This document shows, piece by piece, positions 40,642-61,012 of a DNA stretch of 64,000 nt (positions within the stretch are counted from its first letter, which is position 1; each line of letters opens with the position of its first letter). Source of the stretch: an uncultured Sphingomonadaceae bacterium. Lineage in GTDB: Bacteria; Pseudomonadota; Alphaproteobacteria; Sphingomonadales; Sphingomonadaceae. The DNA lies in the NCBI GenBank assembly GCA_947497455.1, contig CANMGU010000001.1:1550001-1614000 (forward strand), read 5' to 3'. The notes below the pieces were generated by a model. The model was not told the DNA's origin, ran no database searches, and saw only the letters and a list, made by a program, of their open reading frames with translations. The position numbers and the translations under genes are program-made.

Positions 40642-43600
40642 ATGAATCAACAGCTCGCTATCGCCAAGGTCGATAATAATCTCCGAACAAACATGGCCTC
40701 CGCTACATGGCGGAGCGAGCGTGATTTGCATGAGCAGATGCAAAAGGAACTGAATCTCGACCAAGCTGCATGGAACCGGATAGCAGAGGCCAGCACCTTG
40801 CTGATTGAGCAGCTCCGTCATTCTCAAAACCGTCCTTTGATCGATCAGTTTTTAACCGAATATGGTTTGTCGAGTGATGAAGGGGTGCAGCTGATGCGGC
40901 TGGCCGAAGCGCTATCGCGGACCACCAATGCGACCACGGCTGACGAGCTTATCCAAGACAAGCTAATCGGCCGCGACTGGTTGTCTCATAGCGGCGCCGG
41001 ACATACGCTTGCGATGAGACTGTCAGGGCGAATCCTCTATCTGACCGATCGCTGGTTACACTGGAACAAAAGCGCCAGTAATCCGCTCACAAAACTCATT
41101 GCCAAAATAGGCAACGTAAAATTACGCTTCGGTATCCGCACAGCAATCAAAGTGCTTTCTTCACAGTTTGTATTCGCAGAAACATTGGATAGCGCAATCA
41201 GGCGAGGAGAAAAATATAGTCGCAAGGGCTATGTTTTTTCTTTTGATATGCTCGGAGAAGCAGCCCGTACGGCAACCGATGCACAAAAATACCATAAATC
41301 ATATGCCGATGCATTGGATCGGGTTGCGGCCCACGCAAAATCCGATGACCCAGGCAGAAACCATAGCATCTCTATCAAATTATCTGCGCTTCACCCGCGT
41401 TATGAATTTGCACAGGCAGAGCGTGCTGTTCCGGAAATAGCGGCAATGCTGGTTCCATTAGCCATTAAAGCACGAGCGGCCAACATCCAGATCACGATCG
41501 ATGCCGAAGAGACTGAACGGCTCGACATATCGATGGATGTCCTTGCAACGCTTGTCGCGGCCCCCGAGCTGAAAGGCTGGAAAGGTTTGGGGTTCGTAGT
41601 TCAAGCTTATCAAAGGCGTGCACTGCCGTTGATTGATTGGTTGGCCGAGCAAGCAGTTCGATTAGAGGCTCCGCTTTTCATTCGCCTGGTTAAAGGCGCC
41701 TATTGGGACAGTGAAATAAAACGCGCGCAGGAAATGGGGCTCGACAGCTACCCGGTTTTTACCCGCAAGGAGATGACTGATCTCAGCTATCTCACCTGCG
41801 CGCAAAAATTATTGGCCAGCCCAGATCACTTTGTCGCTCAATTCGCCACACATAATGCCCATAGCATTGCCGCTGTGAAGGAACTCGCAGGCCCCGAGCG
41901 CCCCATCGAAATACAACGGCTGTTTGGCATGGGGCAAGAACTGCATGATGGACTTTTGGATCAGCCCCAAATCCTCAGTCGAATATATGCGCCGGTGGGC
42001 ACCCAGAAAGACTTGCTCTCTTATCTCATTCGACGATTGCTGGAGAACGGAGCCAACAGTTCGTTTGTGCACAAGCTGGCCGATCCAAATATTAAACTGT
42101 CAACATTGGTCCGTGATCCGATAACAGCATTGGAACAACATTCGACGATTGCAAATCAGAGAATTCCGCCGCCGAAACAGTATCTGAGCAGTGCACGAAA
42201 AACCGCAAAAGGTTGGGATCTAGCGAACCCGATGCACCGCATGAGATTTCAAGAAGAACTCAATATCGCGGCAAAACAAACATATCTCTCCGCCCCGATC
42301 ATCGCAGGTGAGGAAGTTCAAGGCGATGAAGCACCTGTATTTAATCCAGCGATAACCTCAGAACAGATCGGTTCTGTTGTTGTCGCTGACGAGAATGCGG
42401 CCGAAATTGCTATAGTTACAGCTCAGGAAGCATTTGCAAGCTGGTCCTGTCGCTCTGCAGCAGAGCGCGCCCGCTTACTTGAAAATGCTGCCGATCTTTT
42501 GGAAGAACGATCCGGTCTTTTTCATTATCTTACGATCAAAGAAGCAGGAAAAACATGGAGTGACGCAATTGACGAAGTTCGCGAGGCAGTGGATTTCTGT
42601 CGCTACTATGCCGAGCAGGCAAAAGCACCGTCTTTCAGCAAACGCCACCCTCTGGGCGTAACAATATGTATTTCGCCCTGGAATTTTCCACTTGCGATTT
42701 TTCTAGGCCAGATCACCGCAGCTCTAGCCGCAGGCAATACGGTGGTTGCCAAACCTGCAGAACAGACCCCGCTTATTGCTGCGGAAGCCATACGCTTACT
42801 GCATGATGCAGGAATTGATGCAGCAGCCGTCAATCTGCTGCCGGGTTCTGGCGCACTGATAGGCGAGGCATTGGTTTCCCATTCGCTGGCCGCTGCCGTC
42901 TGCTTTACCGGATCCACGGCCACAGCCAAACGCATCACGAGGCGATTGGCCCAAGTCCATCGACCGTTGACACCGTTAATTGCCGAAACGGGTGGAATCA
43001 ACGCCATGATTGTCGATTCATCGGCACTCCCGGAGCAAACTGTAGACGCCGTTATTTCATCTGCTTTTCAAAGCGCCGGGCAGCGTTGCTCAGCCTTGCG
43101 AATATTGTGCATACAAGAGGACATCGCCGACCAATTTATCGAATTGCTTTGCGGAGCGATGCAGGCCCTCGAAGTTGGCGATCCTTGGCATATATCCAAT
43201 GACGTTGGTCCGGTTATTGATGCAGCCGCCAAACAGAATATCACCAGTCATGTGAACCGCCTCGATGAGATAGGTCGAAAGATCGGCAGCACCTCTGACC
43301 TGAATGTGGAAGATGGCCAGCCCAACACAGGACATTTTGTTTTTCCGGTCGCATATGAACTCAATGACATTTCCGATCTTGATCGCGAGATTTTTGGCCC
43401 GGCACTTCATGTTGTCCGCTTTAAAGCAGATGAGAAAATGGCTGTGATTGATAAAATCAACAATAGTGGATTTGGCCTGACCCTGGGAATTCACAGTCGC
43501 ATTGATGGACTCTCTCAAGACATGGCGGAGCGCGCCCAAGTGGGTAACATATATATCAACCGCAATCAGATTGGCGCCGTCGTTGGCGTTCAACCGTTCG

Positions 43601-44379
43601 GTGGCCAAGGGCTGTCAGGTACCGGGCCAAAAGCTGGAGGACCACTATATTTGCTAAGGCTTTCCAAAAGTGAAAGGCTTGATGAAAATATGATGGTAAA
43701 AGAGTCCATCACAGGACCAATGGGGCATCAACATGTTCCCTCTGTCAATCTTGCGGACTCGATCGCAGCAGGTATCAAGTCGCATGATCAGTGGAGTGCA
43801 GGTTCGGCTGACGACAATGGCCTGACTCTTTTAACGGAAGCTGCACCGGATAATTTCGGGCAAATCCTAAGTCGCGAACTCTCACTTCGAGATGAGATCC
43901 TAACCACGAATATCTCCCTTGCCTCTCCTGCGGGGGAAACGAATGCCTATGATATTAAAGGGCGCGGTCTTATTGTTTCGATGCTTCAAGATAAAACGGC
44001 TATCTTTACTGCCTGCGCTCGTGCCTTGGTCACGGGAAACAGTTTCATGCAAATTGACCTGCAACAATCCAACGGGAATATGGAACAACTGATCAATACG
44101 ATCGATAAGATAACCGGCATTGATAATTTGGTACAGCAATCTGTTATCTCCGAACCGGAAGATATTTTCCGGCAGCTCCAGGCTGGATCAATCGGCGGTA
44201 TTATCGTTGACCCGACTGATCCAGCTATGATGGGCCTGGGAGCTGCAATTGCTGAGAGAAACGGAGCAATATTGCCAATTCTCACATTGCAGGATTCACA
44301 TGATCGTTTCGTCCACGAAAAGACAGTGACATGCAATACAGCCGCTGCTGGCGGGGACGTTTCTCTACTTAACGCTTGA
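40642..44379 (+). CDS. putA: Bifunctional proline dehydrogenase / glutamate-semialdehyde dehydrogenase
   Basis: 1245 residues. Oxidises proline to glutamate at the membrane, feeding electrons to the quinone pool. There is no N-terminal ribbon-helix-helix, so it is not the self-regulating E. coli type; control is by the divergent Lrp regulator. PRODH barrel: SIKLSALHPRYEFAQAERAV, IDAEETERLDI, VVQAYQRRALPLIDWL, RLVKGAYWDSEIKRAQ and RRLLENGANSSFVHKL. ALDH domain: SPWNFPLAIFLGQ, FTGSTATAKRI, ETGGINAMIVDSSAL and catalytic Cys816 in SAGQRCSALRI. After the ALDH core a C-terminal extension of about 200 residues follows, typical of the long PutA class. Confidence 0.97.
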   Translation: MNQQLAIAKVDNNLRTNMASATWRSERDLHEQMQKELNLDQAAWNRIAEASTLLIEQLRHSQNRPLIDQFLTEYGLSSDEGVQLMRLAEALSRTTNATTADELIQDKLIGRDWLSHSGAGHTLAMRLSGRILYLTDRWLHWNKSASNPLTKLIAKIGNVKLRFGIRTAIKVLSSQFVFAETLDSAIRRGEKYSRKGYVFSFDMLGEAARTATDAQKYHKSYADALDRVAAHAKSDDPGRNHSISIKLSALHPRYEFAQAERAVPEIAAMLVPLAIKARAANIQITIDAEETERLDISMDVLATLVAAPELKGWKGLGFVVQAYQRRALPLIDWLAEQAVRLEAPLFIRLVKGAYWDSEIKRAQEMGLDSYPVFTRKEMTDLSYLTCAQKLLASPDHFVAQFATHNAHSIAAVKELAGPERPIEIQRLFGMGQELHDGLLDQPQILSRIYAPVGTQKDLLSYLIRRLLENGANSSFVHKLADPNIKLSTLVRDPITALEQHSTIANQRIPPPKQYLSSARKTAKGWDLANPMHRMRFQEELNIAAKQTYLSAPIIAGEEVQGDEAPVFNPAITSEQIGSVVVADENAAEIAIVTAQEAFASWSCRSAAERARLLENAADLLEERSGLFHYLTIKEAGKTWSDAIDEVREAVDFCRYYAEQAKAPSFSKRHPLGVTICISPWNFPLAIFLGQITAALAAGNTVVAKPAEQTPLIAAEAIRLLHDAGIDAAAVNLLPGSGALIGEALVSHSLAAAVCFTGSTATAKRITRRLAQVHRPLTPLIAETGGINAMIVDSSALPEQTVDAVISSAFQSAGQRCSALRILCIQEDIADQFIELLCGAMQALEVGDPWHISNDVGPVIDAAAKQNITSHVNRLDEIGRKIGSTSDLNVEDGQPNTGHFVFPVAYELNDISDLDREIFGPALHVVRFKADEKMAVIDKINNSGFGLTLGIHSRIDGLSQDMAERAQVGNIYINRNQIGAVVGVQPFGGQGLSGTGPKAGGPLYLLRLSKSERLDENMMVKESITGPMGHQHVPSVNLADSIAAGIKSHDQWSAGSADDNGLTLLTEAAPDNFGQILSRELSLRDEILTTNISLASPAGETNAYDIKGRGLIVSMLQDKTAIFTACARALVTGNSFMQIDLQQSNGNMEQLINTIDKITGIDNLVQQSVISEPEDIFRQLQAGSIGGIIVDPTDPAMMGLGAAIAERNGAILPILTLQDSHDRFVHEKTVTCNTAAAGGDVSLLNA

Positions 44380-44475: not shown

Positions 44476-46632
44476 ATGACCACGCGTGTTCTTATCGTTG
44501 ATGACCGGCCAACAAATCTCAGGATTTATGCCCAGTTCGTAACAATCATGGGGGAGAAATACTCTTCCGTGACATTTGCTGATCCTGTCGAAGCGCTAGA
44601 CTGGCTGCATAAAAATACGGCTGAATTGCTGGTTGTGGACTATCGCATGCCCAAAATGAATGGTGCTGAGTTCATCAAAAAAGTCCGCAAAATGTCTAAT
44701 TGCAGTGATGTACCGGCGATCGTCATTACGGCGCATCAGGATCGTGAATGTCGACTGTCCGCACTCGATGCCGGAGCCACCGACTTTCTTCAAAGCCCGG
44801 TTTCGCATGTAGAATTTTGCAAAAGAGCGATGTCACTGCTCACCAAAAGTGAGAAAAGTGTCAATCTGCGTAAGCGCGCCTCCGAGATTGAGCGCAAGCA
44901 TGCGTCGGTAACTGACAATACCGAACATAGCGCTCCAACAAACAAGAGCATGCTGGAACAGATCATCGATACGATTCCAATCATGATCAATGCTACGGAT
45001 CGTTCGGGACGATGCCTGTTCACCAACGCTTATCAGTCGGCGCTGTTTGATAAAACGCCAGATGAAATGGTTGGCAGAGACTTTGGTGATTTGCTGGGAC
45101 CAGAACTAGCGAAAAATTCTGATCGCCGAAACAAGATCGTTCTGAGGTCTGAACAACCCATCCCTCACTATGAAGAGAAGTTCACCAGTGACGGTGTGGA
45201 GCTTATTTTCCATTGTAACAAGTCTCCCCTGCTCAATCACAAGGGTGAAACTATCGGTGTGTTGACAACAGCGGTTGACATCACAGCCCGTAAATTTGCG
45301 GAAGAGCATCGCACCCATCTGGCCTTGCATGATATGCTAACCGGGCTTCCCAATCGCGCCTTGCTTGCAGAAAAAGTTCGCAAGGCAATCGACACCTGCC
45401 AAAAGTCAGGAAAAGAGGCCGCGCTTCTTTTGCTTGATCTCGACCGGTTCAAGGTGATTAACGACACAAGAGGCCATCATAGCGGCGACACTCTTTTACG
45501 GGAAGTTGCAGAGAGACTGTTGGATATTATCGGCCCCGATGATTTTGCTGCACGGATTGGTGGGGACGAATTTGCGATAATTCTCGGCGAGGTTGATGGT
45601 GCTGATACAATCAATTCGCGTTGCACCAAAATTCTGAAAGCGATCAACGAGCCTTATTCGATCAGCGGCATTGAACAGGTAATCGGCGCCAGCATCGGTG
45701 TCAGCTTAATCCCTTCAGACGGCAATGAATATGAAGAGCTGCTAAGGCTGGCTGATCTGGCCATGTATGATGCAAAAGCCAATGGCCGCAATTGCCATCG
45801 CTTCTTCTCTGAGGGAATGAACCAGATTGCACAGGCCGACGCTGCGCTAGAGATAGAATTGCGTGATGCGCTGAGTCAAAATCAGTTCGTCCTAGAATAT
45901 CAGCCGATAGTGGATGCAAAAACATTAAATTATGTCGGGCTGGAAGCCTTGATCCGCTGGGATCATCCCACCCGCGGACGTCTACTGCCGGTTCAGTTCA
46001 TTCGCGTAGCCGATGATACCGGGATTATGGATACTCTGGGCAAATGGGTTATCGCAGAGGTTTGCAGCCAGATTCGGCGATCAGCGGATGAGGGCGTCGA
46101 GCTTCCCCGCGTTGCCATAAACGTGTCTCCAAGACAGTTTCAGAACCAGAATGTTTGTGAAGACATTCTCAAAAATATCGAACTCAATAATATTGATCCG
46201 TCGAAAATTGTGGTGGAGATTACCGAAGAGCTCTTGCTCCATAATAATGATCACGTGAGCCAGACATTACATCGGCTGCGTAACGCCGGTGTCGGCATTT
46301 CTATTGATGATTTCGGAACCGGGTATTCGTCGCTGCAATATCTGCGTGACCTACCAGCAAACTGCCTCAAGATTGACCGCACTTTTATATCGCGGATTGA
46401 ACATTCAGCCGCTGATCGGGCCATTATTGGGACGATCTCGCATCTTGCCCACGCGCTAGATATGCGGGTGATAGCCGAAGGTGTTGAGAATGACGCTCAA
46501 CTTGATCTGCTGCAGGTATCGGGATGCGACGAAATCCAGGGCTTTAAAATTGCCCGGCCACAACGTGCGGAGGATTTGCCCAAGCTGTTTCAAATGCAAC
46601 GCAAACATGTTTCTAGCTCGGCCGAAGGATAG
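44476..46632 (+). CDS. Response regulator with PAS, GGDEF and EAL domains
   Basis: 718 residues from ATG 44476 (MTTRVLIVDDRPTNLRIYAQ). The receiver domain has phospho-acceptor Asp55 in LLVVDYRMPKMNG; a PAS domain lies at about 165-280 (LEQIIDTIPIMINATDRSGR); the diguanylate cyclase motif is intact at 362-366 in RIGGDEFAII, with no RxxD inhibitory site in front; the phosphodiesterase motif is EAL 490-492 in GLEALIRWDHPTRG, with metal and loop residues preserved (INVSPRQFQN, ITEELL, SIDDFGTGYSSLQYL, IAEGVEN). Both halves look active, so net c-di-GMP effect depends on the receiver/PAS input. Six bases separate it from the RpfC-like kinase gene, implying one operon and a likely cognate pair. Confidence 0.93.
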   Translation: MTTRVLIVDDRPTNLRIYAQFVTIMGEKYSSVTFADPVEALDWLHKNTAELLVVDYRMPKMNGAEFIKKVRKMSNCSDVPAIVITAHQDRECRLSALDAGATDFLQSPVSHVEFCKRAMSLLTKSEKSVNLRKRASEIERKHASVTDNTEHSAPTNKSMLEQIIDTIPIMINATDRSGRCLFTNAYQSALFDKTPDEMVGRDFGDLLGPELAKNSDRRNKIVLRSEQPIPHYEEKFTSDGVELIFHCNKSPLLNHKGETIGVLTTAVDITARKFAEEHRTHLALHDMLTGLPNRALLAEKVRKAIDTCQKSGKEAALLLLDLDRFKVINDTRGHHSGDTLLREVAERLLDIIGPDDFAARIGGDEFAIILGEVDGADTINSRCTKILKAINEPYSISGIEQVIGASIGVSLIPSDGNEYEELLRLADLAMYDAKANGRNCHRFFSEGMNQIAQADAALEIELRDALSQNQFVLEYQPIVDAKTLNYVGLEALIRWDHPTRGRLLPVQFIRVADDTGIMDTLGKWVIAEVCSQIRRSADEGVELPRVAINVSPRQFQNQNVCEDILKNIELNNIDPSKIVVEITEELLLHNNDHVSQTLHRLRNAGVGISIDDFGTGYSSLQYLRDLPANCLKIDRTFISRIEHSAADRAIIGTISHLAHALDMRVIAEGVENDAQLDLLQVSGCDEIQGFKIARPQRAEDLPKLFQMQRKHVSSSAEG

Positions 46633-46637
46633 TTTCC

Positions 46638-49223
46638 ATGCTGTCCTTCACGCCAAGTACGCATAAAAACAAGCATAAAAAAGGTCATAAACACAAACGG
46701 TCCGGGCACCATCATCACCGGCACCACAATGATGTGATCACTCGTGGCCGTGATCGCGAGCGAGAGATGATTATCAATCGCCTCGTACTGATTATCATCG
46801 CCCTCACCATCACGTTCTTTCTTGATGCAGCGCCCCATCTTGTGTTCGGTTTCCAATTGCACCTCATGGGTAGTTTGGCGATCATGATCGCTTATCGATT
46901 CAACCCCCAGCCAAGCAATCCCAGGCGGCTCGCGGGACTGATCGTAGATTTTGGTGTTGCAACCTATTTGTTCGACATTGGCGGCGGCGCAGTGGCAGCG
47001 CTCTATCCTTTATATCTCTGGGTCATACTGGGATACGGTTTTCGTTTTGGGGTCAAATGGCTCGGCATTGCCGCTACTTTGGGGACAATCTCCTTTGGCT
47101 GGACCGTCTACAATGATCCCTTTTGGCATCAGAACATGTCGCTATCTTCAGGCCTTTTAATCGGATTGATTGTCGTGCCGGCCTATTGCTCGACGCTAAT
47201 CATAAAAATTTCAAAAGCGACGAAAGAAGCCGAGGAAGCCAATAAAGCAAAGAGTCTTTTTCTCGCCAGCATCAGTCACGAGCTGCGGACCCCCCTCAAT
47301 GCGATCATCGGCTATGGTACGCATCTGCTTGATATGAAGTTGCCAGAGGCACAGCAACAGATGGTAGGAACGAGCGTTTCTGCCGGTCAGCATCTGCTCC
47401 ATTTAATCAACCAGCTTTTAAGTTTTGCCCAATCGGATACGCAGGAAGAATTGCCTGTACCGAAGGAGTTTAGTGTTGTGGATGTCTTGACTGACGTCAG
47501 AGACATCATGCAACTGGCGGCAACCGAGAAAGGTTTGCAAATCCACCTGCAAGCTGAAGCCATGAGTGATCAGTTGATAGCGGGTCAGTTGGATTATATT
47601 CGAAACATTCTGATCAACCTTACCAGTAATGCGGTGAAGTTCACGGAAACCGGAGCAATTGTTCTTAAATGCGGCATAGATGACAGTGAAGAAGTGCCGC
47701 AACTATGGTGTTCCGTTACCGACACCGGTCCAGGTATCGCGGCCGAAGCTCATGAGAAAATCTTTGGCGTTTTTCAACAAGCGGACGACAGTATCCTCGA
47801 TACTTTCGGTGGCACAGGATTGGGACTTGCCATCTGCCAACAGTTGGCGAGGCAGATGGGAGGCGACATTGGCTTGGAAAGTGCGATTGGAGAAGGCAGC
47901 ACCTTTACCTTAAACTGTCCCATTGATCTCGTCGCCAGCATCGAAGAAGCACCTGCCGAAGATAGTTTTAAGATACTGTCATTAGGCTTTGGATTGAACG
48001 GACCAGATATCTCTAAAAAAGAAAGCAACAACGCTCGGGTCAATCATATCCAATGTGCTAAAGATGACCGGTTGGAAACGATCCTCAAAAACCATCCCCT
48101 CTCTTCCTATGATTTGGCGCTGCTTGATGAAGAAATAGCTGAGCAGCACAAGGATGATGAGATATTCTGGAATCACTTCCGTGAGGCCAATCTTCCTCCA
48201 GTTCTTCTATCCAGAAACAGCAGCAAAAGTCTGGACGAAATCAAACTGCGTGCGGCCTTTGCGTCAGTCCTACCAGCGTCTCCCGATTTCGACACGGTGC
48301 GTAGTGTCATTCAAATTGGATGTTCTTTCAATCGCGTTGGCAAGAAGACTGATATTGATCCCAACCAGATAATTCGGACATCGGTCAGCTTGAACGTCCT
48401 GGTTGCGGACGATAACCGCACGAACCAGATGGTATTGCAAACGATATTGGTCAATGCAGGTCACCAGGTGGTTGTGGTTTCCGATGGCGAGCAAGCATTG
48501 GATGAGCTCGAGCAACAGGCATTCGATATCGTGTTTCTCGACGTGAACATGCCCAATATGGGAGGCGTAGAGTGCTGTAAGCTATGGCGGCAAATTGAAG
48601 GTCCCCGAAATCATGTTCCGATCATTGGCTTGACCGCAGACTCAACGGTTGAAACCGAGAAGAGATGCCTCGACGCCGGAATGGATTTACGCTTGACCAA
48701 ACCTATAGAGGCCGGCCTTCTGTTGGACACAGTCGCTGAACAAACCGGTAATTTTTTGACTGCAGACGAGGTGCAAACCAACGGTGACGCAGATCCGTTT
48801 AACGTCGTTCGCTCGATAAACGCGAAATCAGAGGATGAACTGGAACCACCGATTGACAACGAGCAAATGGCTTATCTCAGATCAATAGGCGACGACACCT
48901 TCGTGCAGTCTATTATTGATGCCTATCTCGATGACACGTTAGAAGTTATGGCTGCGTTTGAAGAGTCAATAAAGAACCATGATGTTGCTGACTTCCGTTT
49001 TCAGGCACATGCTTTCAAGAGCGGCGCCAATAATGTTGGAGCCTGCAGACTAGCGCAGATGTGCGGCAAGCTCGAAGTTGTCACAGAAGATGACTTCAAC
49101 GAGAATGGCTTCGAATATCTTGCTCAAATTGAAAAAGAATTGTCACGCATTACCGCATTCCTGAATGGTCAGAAAAAGCACACAGGTGGTGAATCCAACG
49201 AAGACGTCAGTGCAGCGGGATAA
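46638..49223 (+). CDS. rpfC: RpfC-like hybrid sensor histidine kinase
   Basis: 861 residues. Starts with a basic, very His-rich stretch (residues 8-32: HKNKHKKGHKHKRSGHHHHR), then five or six transmembrane segments up to about residue 195, the HisKA domain with phospho-His214 in ASISHELRTPLNAI, a HATPase domain (ITNLTSNAVKF-like NLTSNAVKFTETG, DTGPGIAAEAHEKIF, GGTGLGLAICQQLAR), a receiver domain with Asp635 in IVFLDVNMPNMGG, and a C-terminal Hpt domain with His791 in RFQAHAFKSGANNVGA. This is the RpfC order (TM5-HK-REC-HPT). The adjacent rpfF-like gene supports a role as DSF sensor. It ends one base from the convergent rpfF stop. Confidence 0.88.
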   Translation: MLSFTPSTHKNKHKKGHKHKRSGHHHHRHHNDVITRGRDREREMIINRLVLIIIALTITFFLDAAPHLVFGFQLHLMGSLAIMIAYRFNPQPSNPRRLAGLIVDFGVATYLFDIGGGAVAALYPLYLWVILGYGFRFGVKWLGIAATLGTISFGWTVYNDPFWHQNMSLSSGLLIGLIVVPAYCSTLIIKISKATKEAEEANKAKSLFLASISHELRTPLNAIIGYGTHLLDMKLPEAQQQMVGTSVSAGQHLLHLINQLLSFAQSDTQEELPVPKEFSVVDVLTDVRDIMQLAATEKGLQIHLQAEAMSDQLIAGQLDYIRNILINLTSNAVKFTETGAIVLKCGIDDSEEVPQLWCSVTDTGPGIAAEAHEKIFGVFQQADDSILDTFGGTGLGLAICQQLARQMGGDIGLESAIGEGSTFTLNCPIDLVASIEEAPAEDSFKILSLGFGLNGPDISKKESNNARVNHIQCAKDDRLETILKNHPLSSYDLALLDEEIAEQHKDDEIFWNHFREANLPPVLLSRNSSKSLDEIKLRAAFASVLPASPDFDTVRSVIQIGCSFNRVGKKTDIDPNQIIRTSVSLNVLVADDNRTNQMVLQTILVNAGHQVVVVSDGEQALDELEQQAFDIVFLDVNMPNMGGVECCKLWRQIEGPRNHVPIIGLTADSTVETEKRCLDAGMDLRLTKPIEAGLLLDTVAEQTGNFLTADEVQTNGDADPFNVVRSINAKSEDELEPPIDNEQMAYLRSIGDDTFVQSIIDAYLDDTLEVMAAFEESIKNHDVADFRFQAHAFKSGANNVGACRLAQMCGKLEVVTEDDFNENGFEYLAQIEKELSRITAFLNGQKKHTGGESNEDVSAAG

Positions 49224-49224
49224 C

Positions 49225-50184
49225 CTATATCTGAACGCTGCGAAGGGAGCGTTCGATTCTGCGTTCCTGAGCCATAGCTAGACGTTCCATTTTGCGCACG
49301 TCGGCTTCTTCCAGATGCAACGCCGTTTCTGCCCACATATCAGTAATCTCGAGCAGCTCATCAATGGTTACGGGATTGGCAAGGCGCCGCGCCTTGTAGA
49401 CTGCGCGTTCGGCATGAAAGCGCTTACGATTCTGTTTGGTATATTCAACAATCGCAGCTTCACCCTTGCCATCTTCAGCGAGTATATCGACTACGCCCAT
49501 GTCATAGAGTTCTTCGGCCGAGAACAACTTTCCTTCGAGAATAAACTGCTCTGTCTCACGCCGGCTCAATCGTTGCCGGAGATAGCTATAGGCACCCATC
49601 CCTGGGAAAAGATTGAACAAAATTTCAGGTAAACCCAATCGTGCACTTTTCTCGGCAACCAAAATGTCAAAGGCCAAGGCATGCTCAAATCCACCACCTA
49701 AAGCATCACCCTGCACCAATGCCATGGTGATGATTGGAGCTCCAAAGCCGGTGCTATTGGCATATTGCATGTGAACACATGTGCGTGCGTATTTTTTTAG
49801 AGCGCCTAGATCACGCCGTCTTATACAATCCGCAAAATGCTTCAGATCACCACCCAGATTATATATTCCAGGCGTATGTGAACCGCATACAAAATATCTT
49901 AGGGGATCAACTGCGTGGCTTGCGTCCATGGCGTAATTTGTATGCACCCAATCCTGAACCAGCTGGATTTCATCGCCTAACTCATAAGTATAACTGGGCC
50001 GGGATTTCTGGTTCATATAACACCAGAAAATTTCATCGGATTTGTCGAACCGCAGGTCTATCTCGTTGAATTTTTGAGTAAGAATATCCTGACCAAAACC
50101 ATGCTGCGATGTGATCAATGCATCGGTCCCATCAATGACCAGATCGGCATCAATATCATTCACGGCTTGGCTTCTTAAATCCAT
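49225..50184 (-). CDS. rpfF: RpfF-like DSF synthase (crotonase family)
   Basis: 319 residues from ATG 50184 (MDLRSQAVNDIDADLVIDGT); chosen because GGAGAG lies 7 nt before it, although the frame is open 37 codons further. Crotonase fold that, in the RpfF subfamily, makes cis-2-unsaturated fatty-acid signals from acyl-ACP by dehydration and thioester cleavage. The two essential glutamates are present with the subfamily spacing of 20: Glu167 in LGGGFEHALAFD and Glu187 in LGLPEILFNLFPGMGAYS. NLGGDLKHFADCI is the oxyanion-hole region. Ordinary enoyl-CoA hydratases lack the LFPGMGAYS extension. Convergent with, and touching, the rpfC-like gene. Confidence 0.87.
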   Translation of the reverse strand: MDLRSQAVNDIDADLVIDGTDALITSQHGFGQDILTQKFNEIDLRFDKSDEIFWCYMNQKSRPSYTYELGDEIQLVQDWVHTNYAMDASHAVDPLRYFVCGSHTPGIYNLGGDLKHFADCIRRRDLGALKKYARTCVHMQYANSTGFGAPIITMALVQGDALGGGFEHALAFDILVAEKSARLGLPEILFNLFPGMGAYSYLRQRLSRRETEQFILEGKLFSAEELYDMGVVDILAEDGKGEAAIVEYTKQNRKRFHAERAVYKARRLANPVTIDELLEITDMWAETALHLEEADVRKMERLAMAQERRIERSLRSVQI

Positions 50185-50473: not shown

Positions 50474-51490
50474 TTACCCTGCCTCTGCTTCAGATCCGGC
50501 AGATGCGCTGATCAAACCCCGATAAGCGCGTATTGCTGTTCTGGTGCCTTTGGTTACCTCGAAAACATCCTCGGCTATGGGCATGGCTACATTATATTTT
50601 TTGGCTAAAGCCATCACCGTTGGCGCACTCTTCACACCCTCAGCAACCATGAGCATTTCTTCTATGATTTCATCAATATTACGCCCCTTGCCCAGCTCGA
50701 CACCGACATGACGGTTCCGGCTAAGCGGACTTGTGCATGTAGCGATCATATCACCCATCCCGGTTAGACCCGCAAAAGTTTCGGGCCGCCCGCCCATTGC
50801 GACGCCAAGCCGCGTAATCTCTGCAAGCCCACGCGTGATCAGAGCAGAACGGGTATTGTCTCCAGCTCCCAATCCATCACCCATTCCAACAGCTATGGCG
50901 ATAATATTCTTGAGGACCCCGCCCAACTCACAACCCAGCAGGTCGGTATTGGTATACACTCGGAAGAGTCCCGAATGGAACAACTGCTGAAGCTGCTTGA
51001 CAATGATCTCATCTTCCATGGAGATCACACTCGCCGCCGCCTGGCCGGCCATGATCTCTCGCGCCAGATTGGGACCTGTCAACACGCCCACCGGATGACC
51101 CGGAAGAACATCCTCAATGACCTCTGTCATGCGTTTTCCAGTGGATAGCTCAAGGCCTTTTGTCAGGCTTATCACCGGCACCCAGGGGCGCAAATATGGC
51201 TTGGCTTCCTCAAGAACCTTTCGAAAATTATTTGATGGAATACCCATGACCAGGACATCGGCATCTGCGACAGCGTCACCAATTGCATCGGTCGCTTTTA
51301 GCGCTGCTGGCAATTCTGTGTCGGGAAGATATTTGCTGTTGCGATGGTTCTGGTTAATATCCTGAACAGTTTCCGCGTCTCGAGCCCATATCTTAATGGG
51401 AGCATTGCGCGATACCAGTGAGGCCACTGTTGTCCCCCACGAACCGCCGCCCAGTAGCCCAACTCGCAATTTCACAGCCTCATCCCCCAT
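50474..51490 (-). CDS. gpsA: Glycerol-3-phosphate dehydrogenase (NAD(P)+)
   Basis: 338 residues. Reduces DHAP to sn-glycerol-3-phosphate, the backbone for phospholipids and triacylglycerol. Rossmann motif LRVGLLGGGSWGTTVASLVS; VLTGPNLAREIMAGQAAASV; the catalytic region ELGGVLKNIIAIAVGMGDGL and AGDNTRSALITRGLAEITRL. The start at 51490 has GAGGA 5 nt upstream; a GTG five codons later is an alternative. Last gene after the lipid genes on the same strand, 56 nt beyond the preceding stop, so probably co-transcribed with them. Confidence 0.95.
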   Translation of the reverse strand: MGDEAVKLRVGLLGGGSWGTTVASLVSRNAPIKIWARDAETVQDINQNHRNSKYLPDTELPAALKATDAIGDAVADADVLVMGIPSNNFRKVLEEAKPYLRPWVPVISLTKGLELSTGKRMTEVIEDVLPGHPVGVLTGPNLAREIMAGQAAASVISMEDEIIVKQLQQLFHSGLFRVYTNTDLLGCELGGVLKNIIAIAVGMGDGLGAGDNTRSALITRGLAEITRLGVAMGGRPETFAGLTGMGDMIATCTSPLSRNRHVGVELGKGRNIDEIIEEMLMVAEGVKSAPTVMALAKKYNVAMPIAEDVFEVTKGTRTAIRAYRGLISASAGSEAEAG

Positions 51491-51546
51491 TTTTCCTCGC
51501 GACTCCCCTATTTGGGAAATTCTATCTGACTAAACTGGCGGGAAAA

Positions 51547-52476
51547 TTAGTGTTTGGCAAGAAATGCAAGATGTCGAGCAGCTGTTTCTTTAGGCTTCTC
51601 AATCATTGGAACATGCCCTGTTTCTTCGAAAATGATAGATTCACTGTTCCTGATCCCCTCCTCCAGGACCGAAACACAGCTAACATCAATCAGACGATCA
51701 TGGCGTCCCCAGATGATGAGAGTTGGCGCCGCAATTTCTCCAAGACGGTCATTAAGCGGGTGATTTATACCGGCGCCGGCGATCTGCCAAAATATCTTAT
51801 CGAGCAAGTCTCTATGTGCTTCTGCTTCTGCAAAGAAAATCTTCTTGAAATTTTTGGGCATGGGCACCGGTTTATACGATATAAACGCCATAAGCCGATC
51901 AACATCGGCCAGGTCGGCCAGTGCGAGCGAGTTTTCACCTTTTTCAGCTGCAATAGCCAATTCACTTTTGTCGGCGCCCATCACGCCGGCATTGTTGAAT
52001 AGAGTTAAGGATGAAACCTTATCCGGATATTCCATCGCAAACTGCAGCGCTATAAAACCGCCCATGCTGTTACCACCAATATGGCATTGCGGGATATTCA
52101 TGGCGTCGAGAAAAGCGCTCAAACGATGGACTTGAGACGCAATATCATAGTCACGATCAAGAGATCTGTCATTTTCACCAAAGCCAGGCAAATCCGGTGC
52201 GATTAGCCGGTGATATTTGGTAATATGCGGTGCGTAGATCGACCAGTTATCCTTGTCCCCACCAAAACCATGCAGCAAGACCATTGGCACGCCGTCGTGG
52301 CGGCCTCCTTCCAGATAAGGCCAGATATTATCTCCAACTTTGATCGACTTTTGCCGCATCCCCCCTCGAAAACGCAGTAGTGCCGTCATTAGGTCATAAA
52401 GAGCCTTCGGTAGAATGAAATATCCGGCGAGAAGCGCCAGAATAAAGGCTCCGAGAATATATAATATGATCATCAT
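51547..52476 (-). CDS. Membrane-anchored alpha/beta hydrolase
   Basis: 309 residues. The N-terminal hydrophobic segment (MMIILYILGAFILALLAGYF) likely anchors it to the membrane. The hydrolase core has HGFGGDKDNW, nucleophile Ser137 in IGGNSMGGFIAL, acid in LIIWGRHDRLIDV and His in FEETGHVPMIEKP. Related to the lipase/esterase group of LipA-like bacterial hydrolases. In this operon it may hydrolyse acylglycerols or esters. 31 nt after the monoglyceride-lipase-like gene. Confidence 0.85.
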   Translation of the reverse strand: MMIILYILGAFILALLAGYFILPKALYDLMTALLRFRGGMRQKSIKVGDNIWPYLEGGRHDGVPMVLLHGFGGDKDNWSIYAPHITKYHRLIAPDLPGFGENDRSLDRDYDIASQVHRLSAFLDAMNIPQCHIGGNSMGGFIALQFAMEYPDKVSSLTLFNNAGVMGADKSELAIAAEKGENSLALADLADVDRLMAFISYKPVPMPKNFKKIFFAEAEAHRDLLDKIFWQIAGAGINHPLNDRLGEIAAPTLIIWGRHDRLIDVSCVSVLEEGIRNSESIIFEETGHVPMIEKPKETAARHLAFLAKH

Positions 52477-52507
52477 TGCGAATTTCCCCCGTTCGCATGG
52501 TTCTGAA

Positions 52508-53362
52508 TTAGCGCGCCAATATGGATTCTATCCAGTTTGTCATGTCAGAAAGCACTGCATCTTTCTCAGGTTCGTTAAAAATCTCATGAAACAACTCAGG
52601 ATAGATTTTCAGCAATTTTGCTTCGGAGCCTATATTTTCATGCAGGAATACCGAACCTTCTGGAGCAGTCAGCCTGTCTTTTTCGCCATGTAACAAGAGC
52701 ATGGGCAATGTGATTTTTGTCGCCTGACTTTGAATTGTTTCCATATTTGTCATCATCTCAGCGGCCAACCGCGCGCTGATCTTCGTGCCAGAAACCAATG
52801 GGTCAGCAAGATAGTCTGCAACAACCGCCGGATCACGGCTCACACCATTCGCATCAAGTCCCAACACCCCCATTTTCGGTGCAATATTGGACAGAAATTT
52901 GCTCAATCCCTTCATGAATGATGATGGTTCTTCAGTCGCTTTTATCGCTGGTCCAGACAGGACCGCCGCGATAAATTGGTCTTGGTTTTTCAGCAAATAT
53001 GTGGCGCCGATCAGCCCCCCTAAACTATGACCGACCAGGACTATCGGTAACGACTTTTGTTCAGCCGGTAGTTCTGTAATCAGCGCATCTAGGCCGTCAT
53101 GATAGACCGAAAAATTGGGAACAAAGCCATTAACTCCATCCGATTTTCCGTGCCCCCAATGATCAAGGCTATGCACCGCAAAGCCATTTTTGGTGCAGTG
53201 TTCGGCGAAATGGGCGTAGCGCCCGCTATGTTCATCATAGCCGTGGACAAGAACAATAACTGCCTTCGGGGTCTGCTCGGGAGTCCAGCTTTGACAATAG
53301 AGCTTTGCTCCTGCCGCTTCAGACGATGCGGGTAATGTTAGTGCGCCTTCCTGGTGCTTCAA
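52508..53362 (-). CDS. Monoacylglycerol-lipase-like alpha/beta hydrolase
   Basis: 284 residues, cytosolic. The diagnostic VLVHGYDEHSGRYAHFAEHC and LDHWGHGKSDG are those of the monoglyceride lipase/lysophospholipase L2 group; nucleophile Ser113 in LVGHSLGGLIGA; acid in LLLHGEKDRLTAPEG and His near LFHEIFNEPEKD. Would release glycerol and fatty acid from monoacylglycerol as the last step of lipid-droplet breakdown. Start overlaps the patatin stop by 4 nt. Confidence 0.87.
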   Translation of the reverse strand: MKHQEGALTLPASSEAAGAKLYCQSWTPEQTPKAVIVLVHGYDEHSGRYAHFAEHCTKNGFAVHSLDHWGHGKSDGVNGFVPNFSVYHDGLDALITELPAEQKSLPIVLVGHSLGGLIGATYLLKNQDQFIAAVLSGPAIKATEEPSSFMKGLSKFLSNIAPKMGVLGLDANGVSRDPAVVADYLADPLVSGTKISARLAAEMMTNMETIQSQATKITLPMLLLHGEKDRLTAPEGSVFLHENIGSEAKLLKIYPELFHEIFNEPEKDAVLSDMTNWIESILAR

Positions 53363-54837
53363 GCGATTTTCCTTTTCATCGCAATCATATGATCATGCGC
53401 CAGTTCGGTTTCATACTCGAACAATATGCGGTCCAGTGTTTGACTAATTTTGGTTTGCGTACGGACCATTTCGATCTTCGGCCACGTCGTACGCTCTCCC
53501 AACTGAATAAGCTCGCCAATTTCCTCCACCGACAAATCGCTGAGTATTTTCGCAGGGCTCCAGAACATTGTCGGCCGAATGATGTTGATGTCACCGGTAT
53601 AGTCCTGGTTGATTACAGAAAGTGTCATATTGGCCATACTGTTCAGCCGCGGGAAATAGGACAACGGCTTCTGCATGATCTCGACATTGGCGTTGAGCCA
53701 TGCCTTCATCGTTGAGGTCGTCGCGTTTCTAATCGCGGAAATCGGTGTTCTTTGCTGTTTAACGTCGGTTGCAAAGGGTGTGATCAGCGGATTGGCCTGG
53801 CTAACAATGTGATGATTGACACCATATAGCCGGCCCAGTCGTTTGGCCGGCAGGTCATGGGTGACCGAACCATCCACCCATTTCCTGTTGGGCAGATAAG
53901 GTTTGCGTTCACCGGTATGATCTTTGGCTGCCAGTGTTACCGGCGGATATACACCCGGCACGGCACAGGATGCCATCACTGCTTCGCGAATATAGACATT
54001 GGGTGATGCAATCGCGTTCAAAAGACGTGATGTCTGATGCTTTTCCGCCGGTGCGATTGAAACATTCAGATGCCTGCCCGTTAGCTCATACGCTTCCTGG
54101 AAAGTGAGATCCGGAATCATTGTCGAAATTCGCTCTCGGATTTCGTCGACCTTAAGACGCCTTGTGGTTCCGAAGAGACCGATACCATTCTTCCCGGCCT
54201 CATCATCCCGGCCATCTGTGACCAGATTTTCAGGATCAAAAAAGGGAGGGATTTCATCGTCCATATGAGTACTGATCAATGCACCAACCACGGATCCACC
54301 GCTCGACCCAGACATGATATGTGGCAACAGACCTTCTGACCATAATGCCTTGACCACACCCATATGAAAATAGAGGAAGGCACCTGAGCCGCTCATTAGG
54401 AAAGCCGAACGACCGTAACAATGCTGCGCCCGGCGAAAGAAATCGAGCTTCTCTTCAAAAGGAATGTCATCAACTTTGTCGCTGGCCAGATATTCCAATG
54501 AGTTTACGATGGCGTCGACATAGTCTTGAATAAGCTGCTTGGTACCAAATCTTGCTTTCTGGTGCAGGCGATCATTGCCCATGCCATCCATGTTACCATG
54601 TATGCCCTCATTGAGCGCATAGAGCAGTCCGGCATTATCCTGGGCTTTCCAGAGCTTTGACAAGCGTTTCAACCGTCGACGTATGGAAACATTGTCGAAA
54701 TGCTTACTTTCGTCAGATGCCTTCCATTTGTCGACACCGGTTGAACGATCATGTGCGGCAGCTGCGTCGGACCAGTCGGAATAATTTTCCGCCTGGCTCA
54801 TCGCCTTTTCCATCTTCAAAGTGGTATTCAAAATCAT
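53359..54837 (-). CDS. Patatin-like triacylglycerol lipase with N-terminal DUF3336
   Basis: 492 residues (an ATG at 54801, 12 codons in, is also possible). The N-terminal ~140 residues match DUF3336 (RRRLKRLSKLWKAQDNAGLL), a domain paired with patatin in eukaryotic TGL3/4/5-type lipases. The patatin part has the oxyanion segment LMSGSGAFLYFHMGV, nucleophile Ser179 in IMSGSSGGSVVGAL, and the dyad Asp in KWVDGSVTHDLP. No signal peptide: acts in the cytosol, probably on stored triacylglycerol. Bacterial DUF3336-patatin proteins beside WS/DGAT genes are consistent with storage lipid turnover. Confidence 0.87.
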   Translation of the reverse strand: MILNTTLKMEKAMSQAENYSDWSDAAAAHDRSTGVDKWKASDESKHFDNVSIRRRLKRLSKLWKAQDNAGLLYALNEGIHGNMDGMGNDRLHQKARFGTKQLIQDYVDAIVNSLEYLASDKVDDIPFEEKLDFFRRAQHCYGRSAFLMSGSGAFLYFHMGVVKALWSEGLLPHIMSGSSGGSVVGALISTHMDDEIPPFFDPENLVTDGRDDEAGKNGIGLFGTTRRLKVDEIRERISTMIPDLTFQEAYELTGRHLNVSIAPAEKHQTSRLLNAIASPNVYIREAVMASCAVPGVYPPVTLAAKDHTGERKPYLPNRKWVDGSVTHDLPAKRLGRLYGVNHHIVSQANPLITPFATDVKQQRTPISAIRNATTSTMKAWLNANVEIMQKPLSYFPRLNSMANMTLSVINQDYTGDINIIRPTMFWSPAKILSDLSVEEIGELIQLGERTTWPKIEMVRTQTKISQTLDRILFEYETELAHDHMIAMKRKIA

Positions 54838-54924
54838 ATTTTACTCGCTTACTGAGAGACGGAATACACGCATCTTTGCAGAAAGACACCCGTTAACGGC
54901 AATATCTCGGTAGTTATCCACTGC

Positions 54925-56469
54925 TTATTTTGCCTTGTCCGGCTGCGCCCTTCTTGGCGTCTTGGACACCCGTCGGTACATTACGGATGCATCTTTGGGT
55001 TGTGCGGCCTTTTTGGCTGGTGGTACATTTGCCCTTGCTTTGCGCTTAGCGGCTGTTGGTTTTGCGTCTCTTAATTGAACAAAAGCGGCTTGAATGCACT
55101 CCCGGAAAAACTCGATATCCGGCATTATTCGTCTGTCGGTGGTAATCGCAAAAGACATGGTCCCATTATAGCTCGGAGTTGCAATAAACAGGCCCATTCC
55201 GTTGCCTAGCGGGGCCATTCCATATTGATGCGTAAGTTCTGCACCATTCATATACATAGACATTTGCGGTCCCGGCACGTTGGAAATGAATACATTACTC
55301 ATCTTCGGCGCAAAACGCTCACTGGTCAGGATTTTAGCCACCCCGGCCATCGTTGCACCGGGAATATGCTGGGTGAGGTCAGTCATAATCCGGGCACTAA
55401 GACCTGACTTCGCCGCCTTCGTCTCACGCGTGGTGTTGCGGACTGCTTCCAATCGTTCCAAAGGGTTGGCAATATTGGTCCAGAGCTTAACCGTCATGGC
55501 CGTAATCTTGTTGCCTGGTGTATTTTCCTGACCCGTCCGTTTGCGGGCATTAACAGGTGCCACGGCAACCAGTGTCTCTTTTGGCAACTCCTTGTGTTTC
55601 ATAAGATACTTACGCAACGCGCCGCTGCAAATCGTCAACACGACGTCATTGATCGTCGCGCCTTCCACTTTGGTCCGCATGGCTTTCAGGTCGTTGAGGT
55701 CAAAACTGATGGCCTCAAACATTTTATGCGGCGAAACGGCGCCATTAAATCGGGTTTCCGGGACTGTGAGACTGCCGCCCTCGCCATCTCCGGCAATATT
55801 CTTCTGCGTCGCATCCCACAGCGTTGGAGTCAGTTTTATTATCGCATTGGCGAGTTTAACGGGCGAGGAAAGGTTGCTCGAAACAGCTCTATTCATGACG
55901 TCCGACGATGAAGGTACATCGCCATAATCCCAGTCTGACGTCGGCACCTCAATCGCTGGCGTGCCTTTGTTGTCCATGTCACTGAGCGCAGTGAAAAAAT
56001 AGGCTGCAGAAGCGCCGTCTATCGCAGAATGATGAACCCGCGTCAAAATGGCATAGCTGCCTTTTCCGTAGCCTTTAACCCGGTCCAACCCCTCAACGAC
56101 ATACATATCCCAAAGCGGTCGATTCATATCCATCGGCTTGCTGAAGTGACGGGCAACATGGATACAAAATTGGCGCCAATCCCCGGGTTCGGGAAGTCTA
56201 CCATGCGAGATATGGGCTTCGATATCAAAATGTTGATCCTCCACCCAATAAGGATGATCGATATCAAACGGCAGGCGATAGAGCTTTCGCTTGAAAACCG
56301 GTGATATATGCAGCCGGCTCCGGACATGTTCGATAATATCCTTAAAGCGTACTTTCTTGCCAGGCGCCGTCGAGGGATCATAGACATATACCGCCATGAC
56401 ATGAGTCAAGTTTTCTGCAGTCTGAATATAAAGGAACTGGGCGTCTTGGGCACTGAGTTGATGCAACAT
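54925..56469 (-). CDS. Wax ester synthase / diacylglycerol O-acyltransferase (WS/DGAT)
   Basis: 514 residues. Acyl-CoA dependent acylation of diacylglycerol or fatty alcohol, the last step of bacterial neutral-lipid storage. The catalytic motif HHSAIDG is intact at 146-152; other family blocks are MNRPLWDMYVVEGL and FISNVPGPQMSMYMNGAELT. The C-terminal ~45 residues are basic and Ala/Pro-rich (AKRKARANVPPAKKAAQPKD), an unusual tail recalling the tail of the PlsC fusion in the same operon. Confidence 0.93.
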   Translation of the reverse strand: MLHQLSAQDAQFLYIQTAENLTHVMAVYVYDPSTAPGKKVRFKDIIEHVRSRLHISPVFKRKLYRLPFDIDHPYWVEDQHFDIEAHISHGRLPEPGDWRQFCIHVARHFSKPMDMNRPLWDMYVVEGLDRVKGYGKGSYAILTRVHHSAIDGASAAYFFTALSDMDNKGTPAIEVPTSDWDYGDVPSSSDVMNRAVSSNLSSPVKLANAIIKLTPTLWDATQKNIAGDGEGGSLTVPETRFNGAVSPHKMFEAISFDLNDLKAMRTKVEGATINDVVLTICSGALRKYLMKHKELPKETLVAVAPVNARKRTGQENTPGNKITAMTVKLWTNIANPLERLEAVRNTTRETKAAKSGLSARIMTDLTQHIPGATMAGVAKILTSERFAPKMSNVFISNVPGPQMSMYMNGAELTHQYGMAPLGNGMGLFIATPSYNGTMSFAITTDRRIMPDIEFFRECIQAAFVQLRDAKPTAAKRKARANVPPAKKAAQPKDASVMYRRVSKTPRRAQPDKAK

Positions 56470-56494
56470 ATGCGGTTCCTTTAAATCAGATTAT

Positions 56495-58840: not shown

Positions 58841-58849
58841 TCTGCTTCA

Positions 58850-60658: not shown

Positions 60659-61012
60659 ATCGTCCCTCAAAATCATTCTGGCCCCATTGGCCGGAAGTCA
60701 TCCTGCCAAAAAAATGCCGGTCTTTACAGCCTTTATTGGCATTGGATCATATTAAGCCACTAACAATTACCACATGTCCAGCTTTGAGGCGGTCATAGCC
60801 TTTAACGAACTGCGCCCGAATCTCGGAAAATATATACAAAACTGTGCAATTTCTGGCCGTTAGACAGACAAAAATGACGTCATCGTTTTTTAACTTGGTT
60901 GGAAATCTGCGCCGCGACTTGGTTACAATGTTGTTAATCCATCTTTTTTCGCGCTGGTTAACAAACGACCCCTATTTCATTCATTATAAGTTCGTGGGTG
61001 AACGGGGAAAAA
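60659..61012. other. 354-nt divergent intergenic region between the lipid operon and the subtilase gene
   Basis: A/T-rich and without a credible reading frame. It must contain promoters in both directions. A TGACGTCA palindrome followed by TCG and a run of T is at 60875-60882, similar to that in the control region of the other surface cluster (23010-23017). Nothing else of note is seen. Confidence 0.5.

Follow-up and report, generated by a model that had tools for sequence, protein, structure and literature searches.

As presented in the excerpts of a 2015 review (PMC4504480) on which we draw, diffusible signal factor (DSF) is perceived in two core modes, RpfC/RpfG and RpfR, and both RpfG and RpfR are described there as breaking down cyclic di-GMP (c-di-GMP) on signal; the same excerpts mention RpfS, which senses DSF through a PAS_4 domain. 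We report here a locus to be compared with these systems. It lies in a stretch of 64,000 nucleotides from an uncultured Sphingomonadaceae bacterium (assembly GCA_947497455.1, contig CANMGU010000001.1, positions 1,550,001 to 1,614,000; hereafter the window, whose numbering we use throughout), and consists of a gene for an RpfF-type synthase, a gene for an RpfC-type hybrid sensor kinase and, in the position of rpfG, a gene for a GGDEF-EAL response regulator. This trio had been noticed in an earlier reading made from the letters alone (the sequence-only reading); the observation is confirmed, and the interpretation then given to it is partly supported. We think that the locus is a cassette of the RpfF/RpfC kind, serving signals of the DSF family (cis-2-unsaturated fatty acids), in which the output has been exchanged, and we would give this reading a probability of roughly 0.6.

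The regulator gene (44476-46632, plus strand, 718 aa) precedes the sensor gene (46638-49223, plus strand, 861 aa) by a spacer of 5 nt, and not of 6 nt as had first been counted, while the synthase gene (49225-50184, minus strand, 319 aa) converges on the sensor gene tail to tail, a single nucleotide separating the two stop codons; the RpfF-like and RpfC-like genes thus do adjoin, as claimed from the start. Pfam gives the regulator the domain order REC-PAS_4-GGDEF-EAL, and the sensor reads as a transmembrane (TM) sensor region followed by HisKA, HATPase, REC and Hpt. The residues and motifs on which the sequence-only reading relied (Asp55, GGDEF at 362 and EAL at 490 in the regulator; His214, Asp635 and His791 in the sensor) are all where they had been placed or were to be expected. 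The host genome is in two contigs and 99.99% complete. For comparison with other genomes, we call a locus type A when RpfF and an RpfC-type sensor are accompanied by a REC-PAS-GGDEF-EAL protein, type B when a REC-PAS-kinase stands in its place, and HD-GYP type when the partner is RpfG-like. Types were assigned by a script and then set by hand in a few cases: L040, L041, L042 and L045 as type B (L041 and L045 lie on contigs that stop before any sensor is reached, and of these four only the L042 regulator was passed through Pfam), L116 as type A, L101 as other, and L100, L111 and L146 as contig ends.

The synthase, of crotonase fold, has an ECH_1 domain (Pfam, residues 143-240) with E167 and E187 as the equivalents of the catalytic Glu141 and Glu161. 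The spacing of 20 between the two Glu is as described before, but this pair alone is not diagnostic of RpfF, because the hydratase-type protein AUH (PDB 1hzd) has both, and we do not accept it as proof. The synthase passes the cut-off of NF006452 (349.9 bits, against 177), and its top matches in PDB are four RpfF-type chains, 7zq7, 3m6m (Xanthomonas RpfF), 6dgn and 5fus, at 169-199 bits, the next being AUH at 55.9 bits. Its AlphaFold2 model, for which nine sequences were used, has a mean predicted local distance difference test score of 72.9 and a predicted template modelling score of 0.73; with this predicted fold, Foldseek places DSF-synthase chains at ranks 1-12 (E 7.2e-22 to 9.7e-20), a crotonase following at rank 13 (7.5e-13). 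The comparison of RpfF with hydratases by phylogeny, which had been suggested as a check, gave the same separation: in a careful tree of 70 rows, whose bootstrap was not fully settled, the four hydratase-type rows (AUH and three of five loci from the host's own genome, L002 and L005 being without a row) fall outside all 66 RpfF rows with support 99/96. Fold and tree thus lead us to reject an ordinary hydratase identity, and the synthase, judged by its sequence and its model, falls among the DSF synthases whose structures are known, apart from ordinary hydratases. Among species-named records the closest RpfF are those of Parasphingorhabdus flavimaris (81% identity) and P. marina (80%), both of which have the trio, and identity rises to 91% in uncultured Sphingomonadaceae. 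The source of the window is accordingly in all probability a Parasphingorhabdus or a near neighbour of that genus.

The sensor has the make-up of RpfC, with an N-terminal segment and a TM input region followed, on the plus strand, by HisKA (47247-47441, residues 204-268, His214), HATPase (47592-47924, residues 319-429), an internal receiver (48396-48734, residues 587-699, Asp635) in which the conserved Lys is retained, and Hpt (48912-49148, residues 759-837, His791). It is collinear with the sensors of HD-GYP-type loci through the input region, including the part that precedes the first TM helix; the RpfF of L128, one HD-GYP-type locus in this alignment, matches the 7zq7 fragment at 100% identity. 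A simple hydropathy scan was too noisy to yield a clear number of TM helices (RpfC has five). The relay residues H214, D635 and H791 are invariant as alignment columns in 64/64 type-A, 22/22 type-B and 7/7 HD-GYP rows, it being understood, here and below, that the 64 type-A rows are related, some of them near-copies, and that their residue counts are not independent events.

In the regulator, the receiver (44488-44823, plus strand, like the domains that follow; residues 5-116) has D9, D10, D55 and T85, which are kept among type-A receivers in 63/64 rows for D9 and D10 (one gap) and in 64/64 for D55 and T85. PAS_4 (44968-45294, residues 165-273) is a possible second, cytoplasmic input. The GGDEF domain (45322-45792, residues 283-439) has its motif intact, with Gly at the position of the I-site Arg, an Arg that is not conserved, and in the EAL domain (45856-46560, residues 461-695) every catalytic residue checked is present. 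That both c-di-GMP motifs are intact, as had been claimed for the window, holds for nearly all 64 rows: the second G and the D, E and F of GGDEF are found in 64/64 and its first G in 60/64 (S in 4), and the E and L of EAL, together with the N, E, D, D, K, E, E and Q of that domain, in 64/64, the A of EAL being found in 63/64 (S in 1). Such conservation suggests that both activities are under selection. In four loci of Roseomonas and Crenalkalicoccus (L230, L253, L255 and L256; Pfam on L230 and L256), the regulator frame is REC-PAS_4 only, of 253-286 aa, with no in-frame output.

The claim that this protein holds the slot of RpfG stands up well. When the host genome is searched with the receiver of the L128 HD-GYP protein, the window regulator comes first (76 bits, the next match reaching 57.8), as it does, by a wide margin, with the REC-PAS part of a type-B partner (186.6 bits, against 41.5 for the next), and the genome has no match to HD_5 (PF13487), the sole HD model searched. 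Since its receiver is the closest in the genome to that of RpfG, the output seems to have been exchanged on a kindred receiver. On our reading, RpfF would make a fatty-acid signal, which the sensor would read at its N-terminal membrane-proximal segment; a phosphorelay would then run from His214 to Asp635, to His791 and finally to Asp55 of the adjoining regulator, whose GGDEF and EAL domains would alter c-di-GMP, PAS_4 perhaps giving the regulator a second input. By analogy with the action described for RpfG and RpfR, net breakdown on signal would be likelier than synthesis. The regulator may be able both to make and to break c-di-GMP; the proposals of the sequence-only reading that the signal would switch it from one activity to the other, and that phosphate would be transferred to it, are conjectural.

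How widespread is this arrangement? In the order sample, an RpfF relative at E ≤ 1e-25 is present in 60/296 genomes, and the sphingomonad loci (59 plus the window) divide into 5 of type A, 4 of type B, 12 with a GGDEF-EAL protein without a sensor kinase, and 39 with neither partner within three called genes on each side. Sphingomonads therefore carry several differing RpfF arrangements, and the 39/60 relatives (L051, for example) that lack both an RpfC-type sensor and a GGDEF-EAL protein nearby may have another role; ten such partnerless sphingomonad RpfF form one clade (support 95) in an earlier RpfF tree which had misframed hydratase rows and branch lengths of 10. In the class sample 24/385 genomes match RpfF, the window's own and G012 included, and the 20 loci taken from the other 22 genomes comprise 15 of type B, one with REC-PAS-HisKA_2, two cut by contig ends and two without a partner, so that type B is commoner than type A in this even sample. 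The phylum sample yields matches in 63/398 genomes; among 20 selected loci there, 2 are of type A, 7 of HD-GYP type, 4 have the sensor only and 7 a GGDEF-EAL protein without a sensor. Finally, 79 named loci closest to a type-A query, drawn from the best 80 of 571 matches and hence biased toward relatives and type A, include 57 of type A, 5 of type B, 6 with another regulator and 11 in which no regulator was found, several of these on short contigs. Type A is represented in this set by Acidocella, Kaistia, Ancylobacter, Roseomonas, Microvirga, Inquilinus, Aureimonas and Gluconacetobacter, among others. The sequence-only reading had remarked that DSF systems are little described in sphingomonads. 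The trio is not peculiar to that family, however, since the named loci closest to it are for the most part those of other alphaproteobacteria. Judging from these sequences, many alphaproteobacteria seem to carry a Xanthomonas-like RpfF/RpfC set with an exchanged output.

Two side observations on these loci deserve mention. The loci L232, L219 and L220 (by title, Mycobacterium sp. KBS0706 and metagenome-assembled genomes of Burkholderiales and Terriglobia, respectively) are close to alphaproteobacterial ones, and L232 sits with Inquilinus on the sensor tree, so that mislabelling, mixed bins or transfer are likely. In L042 (8019-9911) and L045 (1994-3880), beside type-B regulators, RpfF is fused to a C-terminal Haem_oxygenas_2 domain (an iron-containing redox enzyme) according to Pfam, which was run here on these two; L040 and L041 also have long RpfF frames. 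The fused domain is possibly a tailoring enzyme that modifies the signal.

In the window's own genus RpfF is found in 30/32 genomes and the full trio in 19 of 20 loci, the remaining one being cut by a contig end. One genus member, G1043 (locus L178; 100% complete), is without RpfF, sensor and regulator, and putA and gpsA abut there. Because exactly these three genes are missing, we think that the trio comes or goes as a unit, the cassette having been lost or never gained in G1043. (In G1038 neither RpfF nor a sensor was found, but this genome is only 73% complete, and we excluded it from the count of absences.) The synthase gene is convergent with the sensor gene in 58/63 type-A loci besides the window, and the tail gap between the two is -25 to 35 nt in 26 type-A loci, the range being wider across the 63. 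The conserved gene order and the joint absence in G1043 make it unlikely that the regulator is a chance neighbour.

As for the history of the exchange, a quick sensor tree (82 rows, rooted on xanthomonad-like rows, with 24 near-copies or fragments and L132 and L189 omitted) brings all 47 type-A rows into one clade of 54 (support 100), nested in a grade of type B; the same clade holds one type-B row (L103), four rows classed as other and two unassigned. This suggests a single origin of type A from within the REC-PAS-kinase grade. The sensor tree is most simply read as recording one exchange of output and some change thereafter, though it is no proof of this. Ten type-A GGDEF-EAL rows also form one clade (support 96) in a quick tree that includes six of the nine own-genome GGDEF-EAL loci tried, and in an unrooted REC-PAS tree of 29 rows types A and B are split by a branch at 94/96.

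Several observations weigh against the reading of an RpfF/RpfC cassette with a new output, and should be acknowledged. The synthase does not reach the cut-off of the RpfF equivalog NF053515 (223.8 bits, against 550), and we therefore class it among the relatives of RpfF but not among its equivalogs. The type-A rows do not form a single clade on the RpfF tree, where four changes are needed; RpfR-like sphingomonad rows lie between the type-A rows, and this tree cannot tell which output is older, because the root, on a very long hydratase branch, lands among type-A rows. The layout also varies: rpfF is not convergent with the sensor in 5/63 loci, standing on the regulator side in four loci of Microvirga (L205, L215, L217 and L231) and on the strand of the sensor in L207, and more than 1 kb separates regulator and sensor in the Inquilinus-like L222, L228 and L232. 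Moreover, 18 places in the host genome match the window regulator at E ≤ 1e-10 (itself counted), and among so many other GGDEF/EAL proteins it may alter c-di-GMP only slightly or locally. The last two points are the ligand site of the sensor and the receiver of the regulator. In RpfC of Xanthomonas, R15, D17, S18, E19 and Q22, ahead of the first TM helix, are required for DSF sensing, and the substitutions tried at R15, S18 and Q22 reduced the response to DSF, with the exception of R15K and S18T (PMC5391125, in excerpt). The aligned segment of the window sensor, GRDREREM (46746-46769, plus strand, facing RpfC residues 15-22), keeps D17 and E19 (2/5) and has G, R and M for R15, S18 and Q22. In the receiver, a change that goes beyond what had been noticed before is that of the conserved Lys to Ser (S107, codon 44794-44796). 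This Lys is needed for normal receiver switching, and activation by phosphorylation may consequently be weak or altered.

The first of these changes raises the question of which molecule is read. Since the sensor residues differ, a changed ligand or a changed recognition is predicted, and from these sequences we infer that one or the other departs from DSF; the earlier claim that the signal is DSF itself is accordingly not supported. Among the 64 type-A sensors, position 22 is M in 50, I in 11, L in 2 and T in 1, never Q, the residue found there in 20/22 type-B, 7/7 HD-GYP and 3/3 sensor-only rows; position 18 is S in 23, R in 19 (the window included), T in 10, G in 7, P in 4 and D in 1; and R is kept at position 15 in 36, D at position 17 in 51 and E at position 19 in 63. 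An RPDSEHE-like sequence is found at this segment in many alphaproteobacterial sensors. It is possible, at somewhat less than even odds in our opinion, that the cassette is as we describe it but that RpfF makes, and the sensor reads, another or a modified fatty acid, in which case DSF and the Burkholderia signal BDSF would not activate the sensor. The loss of Q22 and the R at position 18 speak for this, as does a His-rich tail (46638-46745, plus strand, 10 His in the first 45 residues), which precedes the sensor segment, recurs in many sensors of the window's genus and could bind metal. The retention of D17 and E19, the S or T at position 18 in 33/64 type-A rows and the Q kept in 2/6 rows classed as other speak against it; furthermore, as type-A sensors fall in one clade, the change at position 22 may be a single event.

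The receiver invites another explanation, namely that it is not switched by ordinary phosphorylation, being instead a docking or weak receiver (for Hpt or for RpfF), with PAS_4 as the true input of an RpfR-like receptor. Of the 64 type-A receivers, 59 have Ser at the Lys position, 4 have Thr and 1 has Ala, and of the 24 type-B receivers 23 have Ser and 1 has Thr, against Lys in 6 and Arg in 1 of the 7 HD-GYP partners; a PAS_4 domain senses DSF in RpfS, and RpfR has PAS, GGDEF and EAL (PMC4504480, in the excerpts already used); and the four REC-PAS_4 frames without output would fit as well. We nevertheless think this less likely than not, for the near-complete retention of D9, D10, D55 and T85 and the invariant relay residues are hard to explain without phosphotransfer. 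Far less probable still is a role of the RpfF-like protein in lipid metabolism, as an ordinary acyl-CoA hydratase or thioesterase whose gene would by chance adjoin a two-component pair in the vicinity of a wax ester/phospholipid cluster. The neighbourhood is admittedly suggestive: putA (40642-44379) is upstream of the regulator, and past rpfF runs a series of lipid genes (50474-60676: gpsA, two alpha/beta hydrolases, a patatin-like gene, WS/DGAT, a plsB-like gene and a HAD-acyltransferase), the first four of which adjoin rpfF in 20 loci from the window's genus. The missed NF053515 cut-off and the Glu pair shared with AUH would agree with such an enzyme. However, fold and tree place the synthase with DSF synthases, the trio stays together in Novosphingopyxis, Acidocella, Roseomonas and others, and G1043 has the entire lipid run without the trio. 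We thus retain the reading of an RpfF/RpfC-kind cassette with an exchanged output.

If this is correct, the loci point to an RpfF/RpfC core that was kept in alphaproteobacteria (Parasphingorhabdus, Acidocella, Roseomonas, Ancylobacter, Inquilinus, Microvirga and others), with a REC-PAS-kinase or a REC-PAS-GGDEF-EAL output in the place of the HD-GYP protein. They would form a natural series for how a sensor gets re-wired to a new c-di-GMP enzyme, with a cassette-less species for comparison, and the changed sensor residues make a changed ligand or recognition a directly testable prediction. A search of the open-access full-text literature, by titles and abstract openings and with most subscription papers and preprints outside its scope, returned no description of RpfF and RpfC accompanied by a REC-PAS-GGDEF-EAL protein. 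On sequence grounds, we regard the locus as a genuine variant of DSF-family signalling, new and fairly widespread, in which ligand site and receiver are altered. More tentatively, it might represent a third core mode of reading DSF-family signals, widespread in Alphaproteobacteria, in which an RpfC kinase with an altered ligand site, a receiver without its Lys and a dual c-di-GMP enzyme with its own PAS_4 would join the RpfC and RpfR designs, for a signal that would not be DSF itself.

The comparison with described systems is then as follows. The window shares with RpfF/RpfC/RpfG of Xanthomonas an RpfF-family synthase, an RpfC-type sensor (a collinear N-terminal segment and TM region, HisKA, HATPase, REC and Hpt), a regulator-sensor operon convergent with rpfF, and a receiver akin to that of RpfG. 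It differs in its output, PAS_4-GGDEF-EAL instead of HD-GYP, in the Ser that replaces the receiver Lys and in three of the five DSF-sensing residues; moreover, none of the neighbours scanned between 34736 and 60676 resembles rpfB or rpfH. With RpfF/RpfR, which serves BDSF in Burkholderia and Cronobacter, it has in common an RpfF convergent with a PAS-GGDEF-EAL protein, as the excerpted review (PMC4504480) describes that system. The window protein, unlike RpfR, has a receiver and adjoins a membrane sensor kinase, and RpfR-like rows are separate from the type-A GGDEF-EAL clade in the quick tree. To our knowledge, RavR, a further candidate for comparison in Xanthomonas, is not encoded together with an rpfF gene. 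The RavS/RavA-RavR system resembles the window in having a GGDEF-EAL response regulator phosphorylated by sensor kinases, but these kinases are of another type and the GGDEF of RavR is degenerate (PMC6707612, in the part consulted). In its synthase, its sensor and its gene order the set of the window is thus as in RpfC/RpfG, in its GGDEF-EAL output it is as in RpfR, and it is a strict member of neither.

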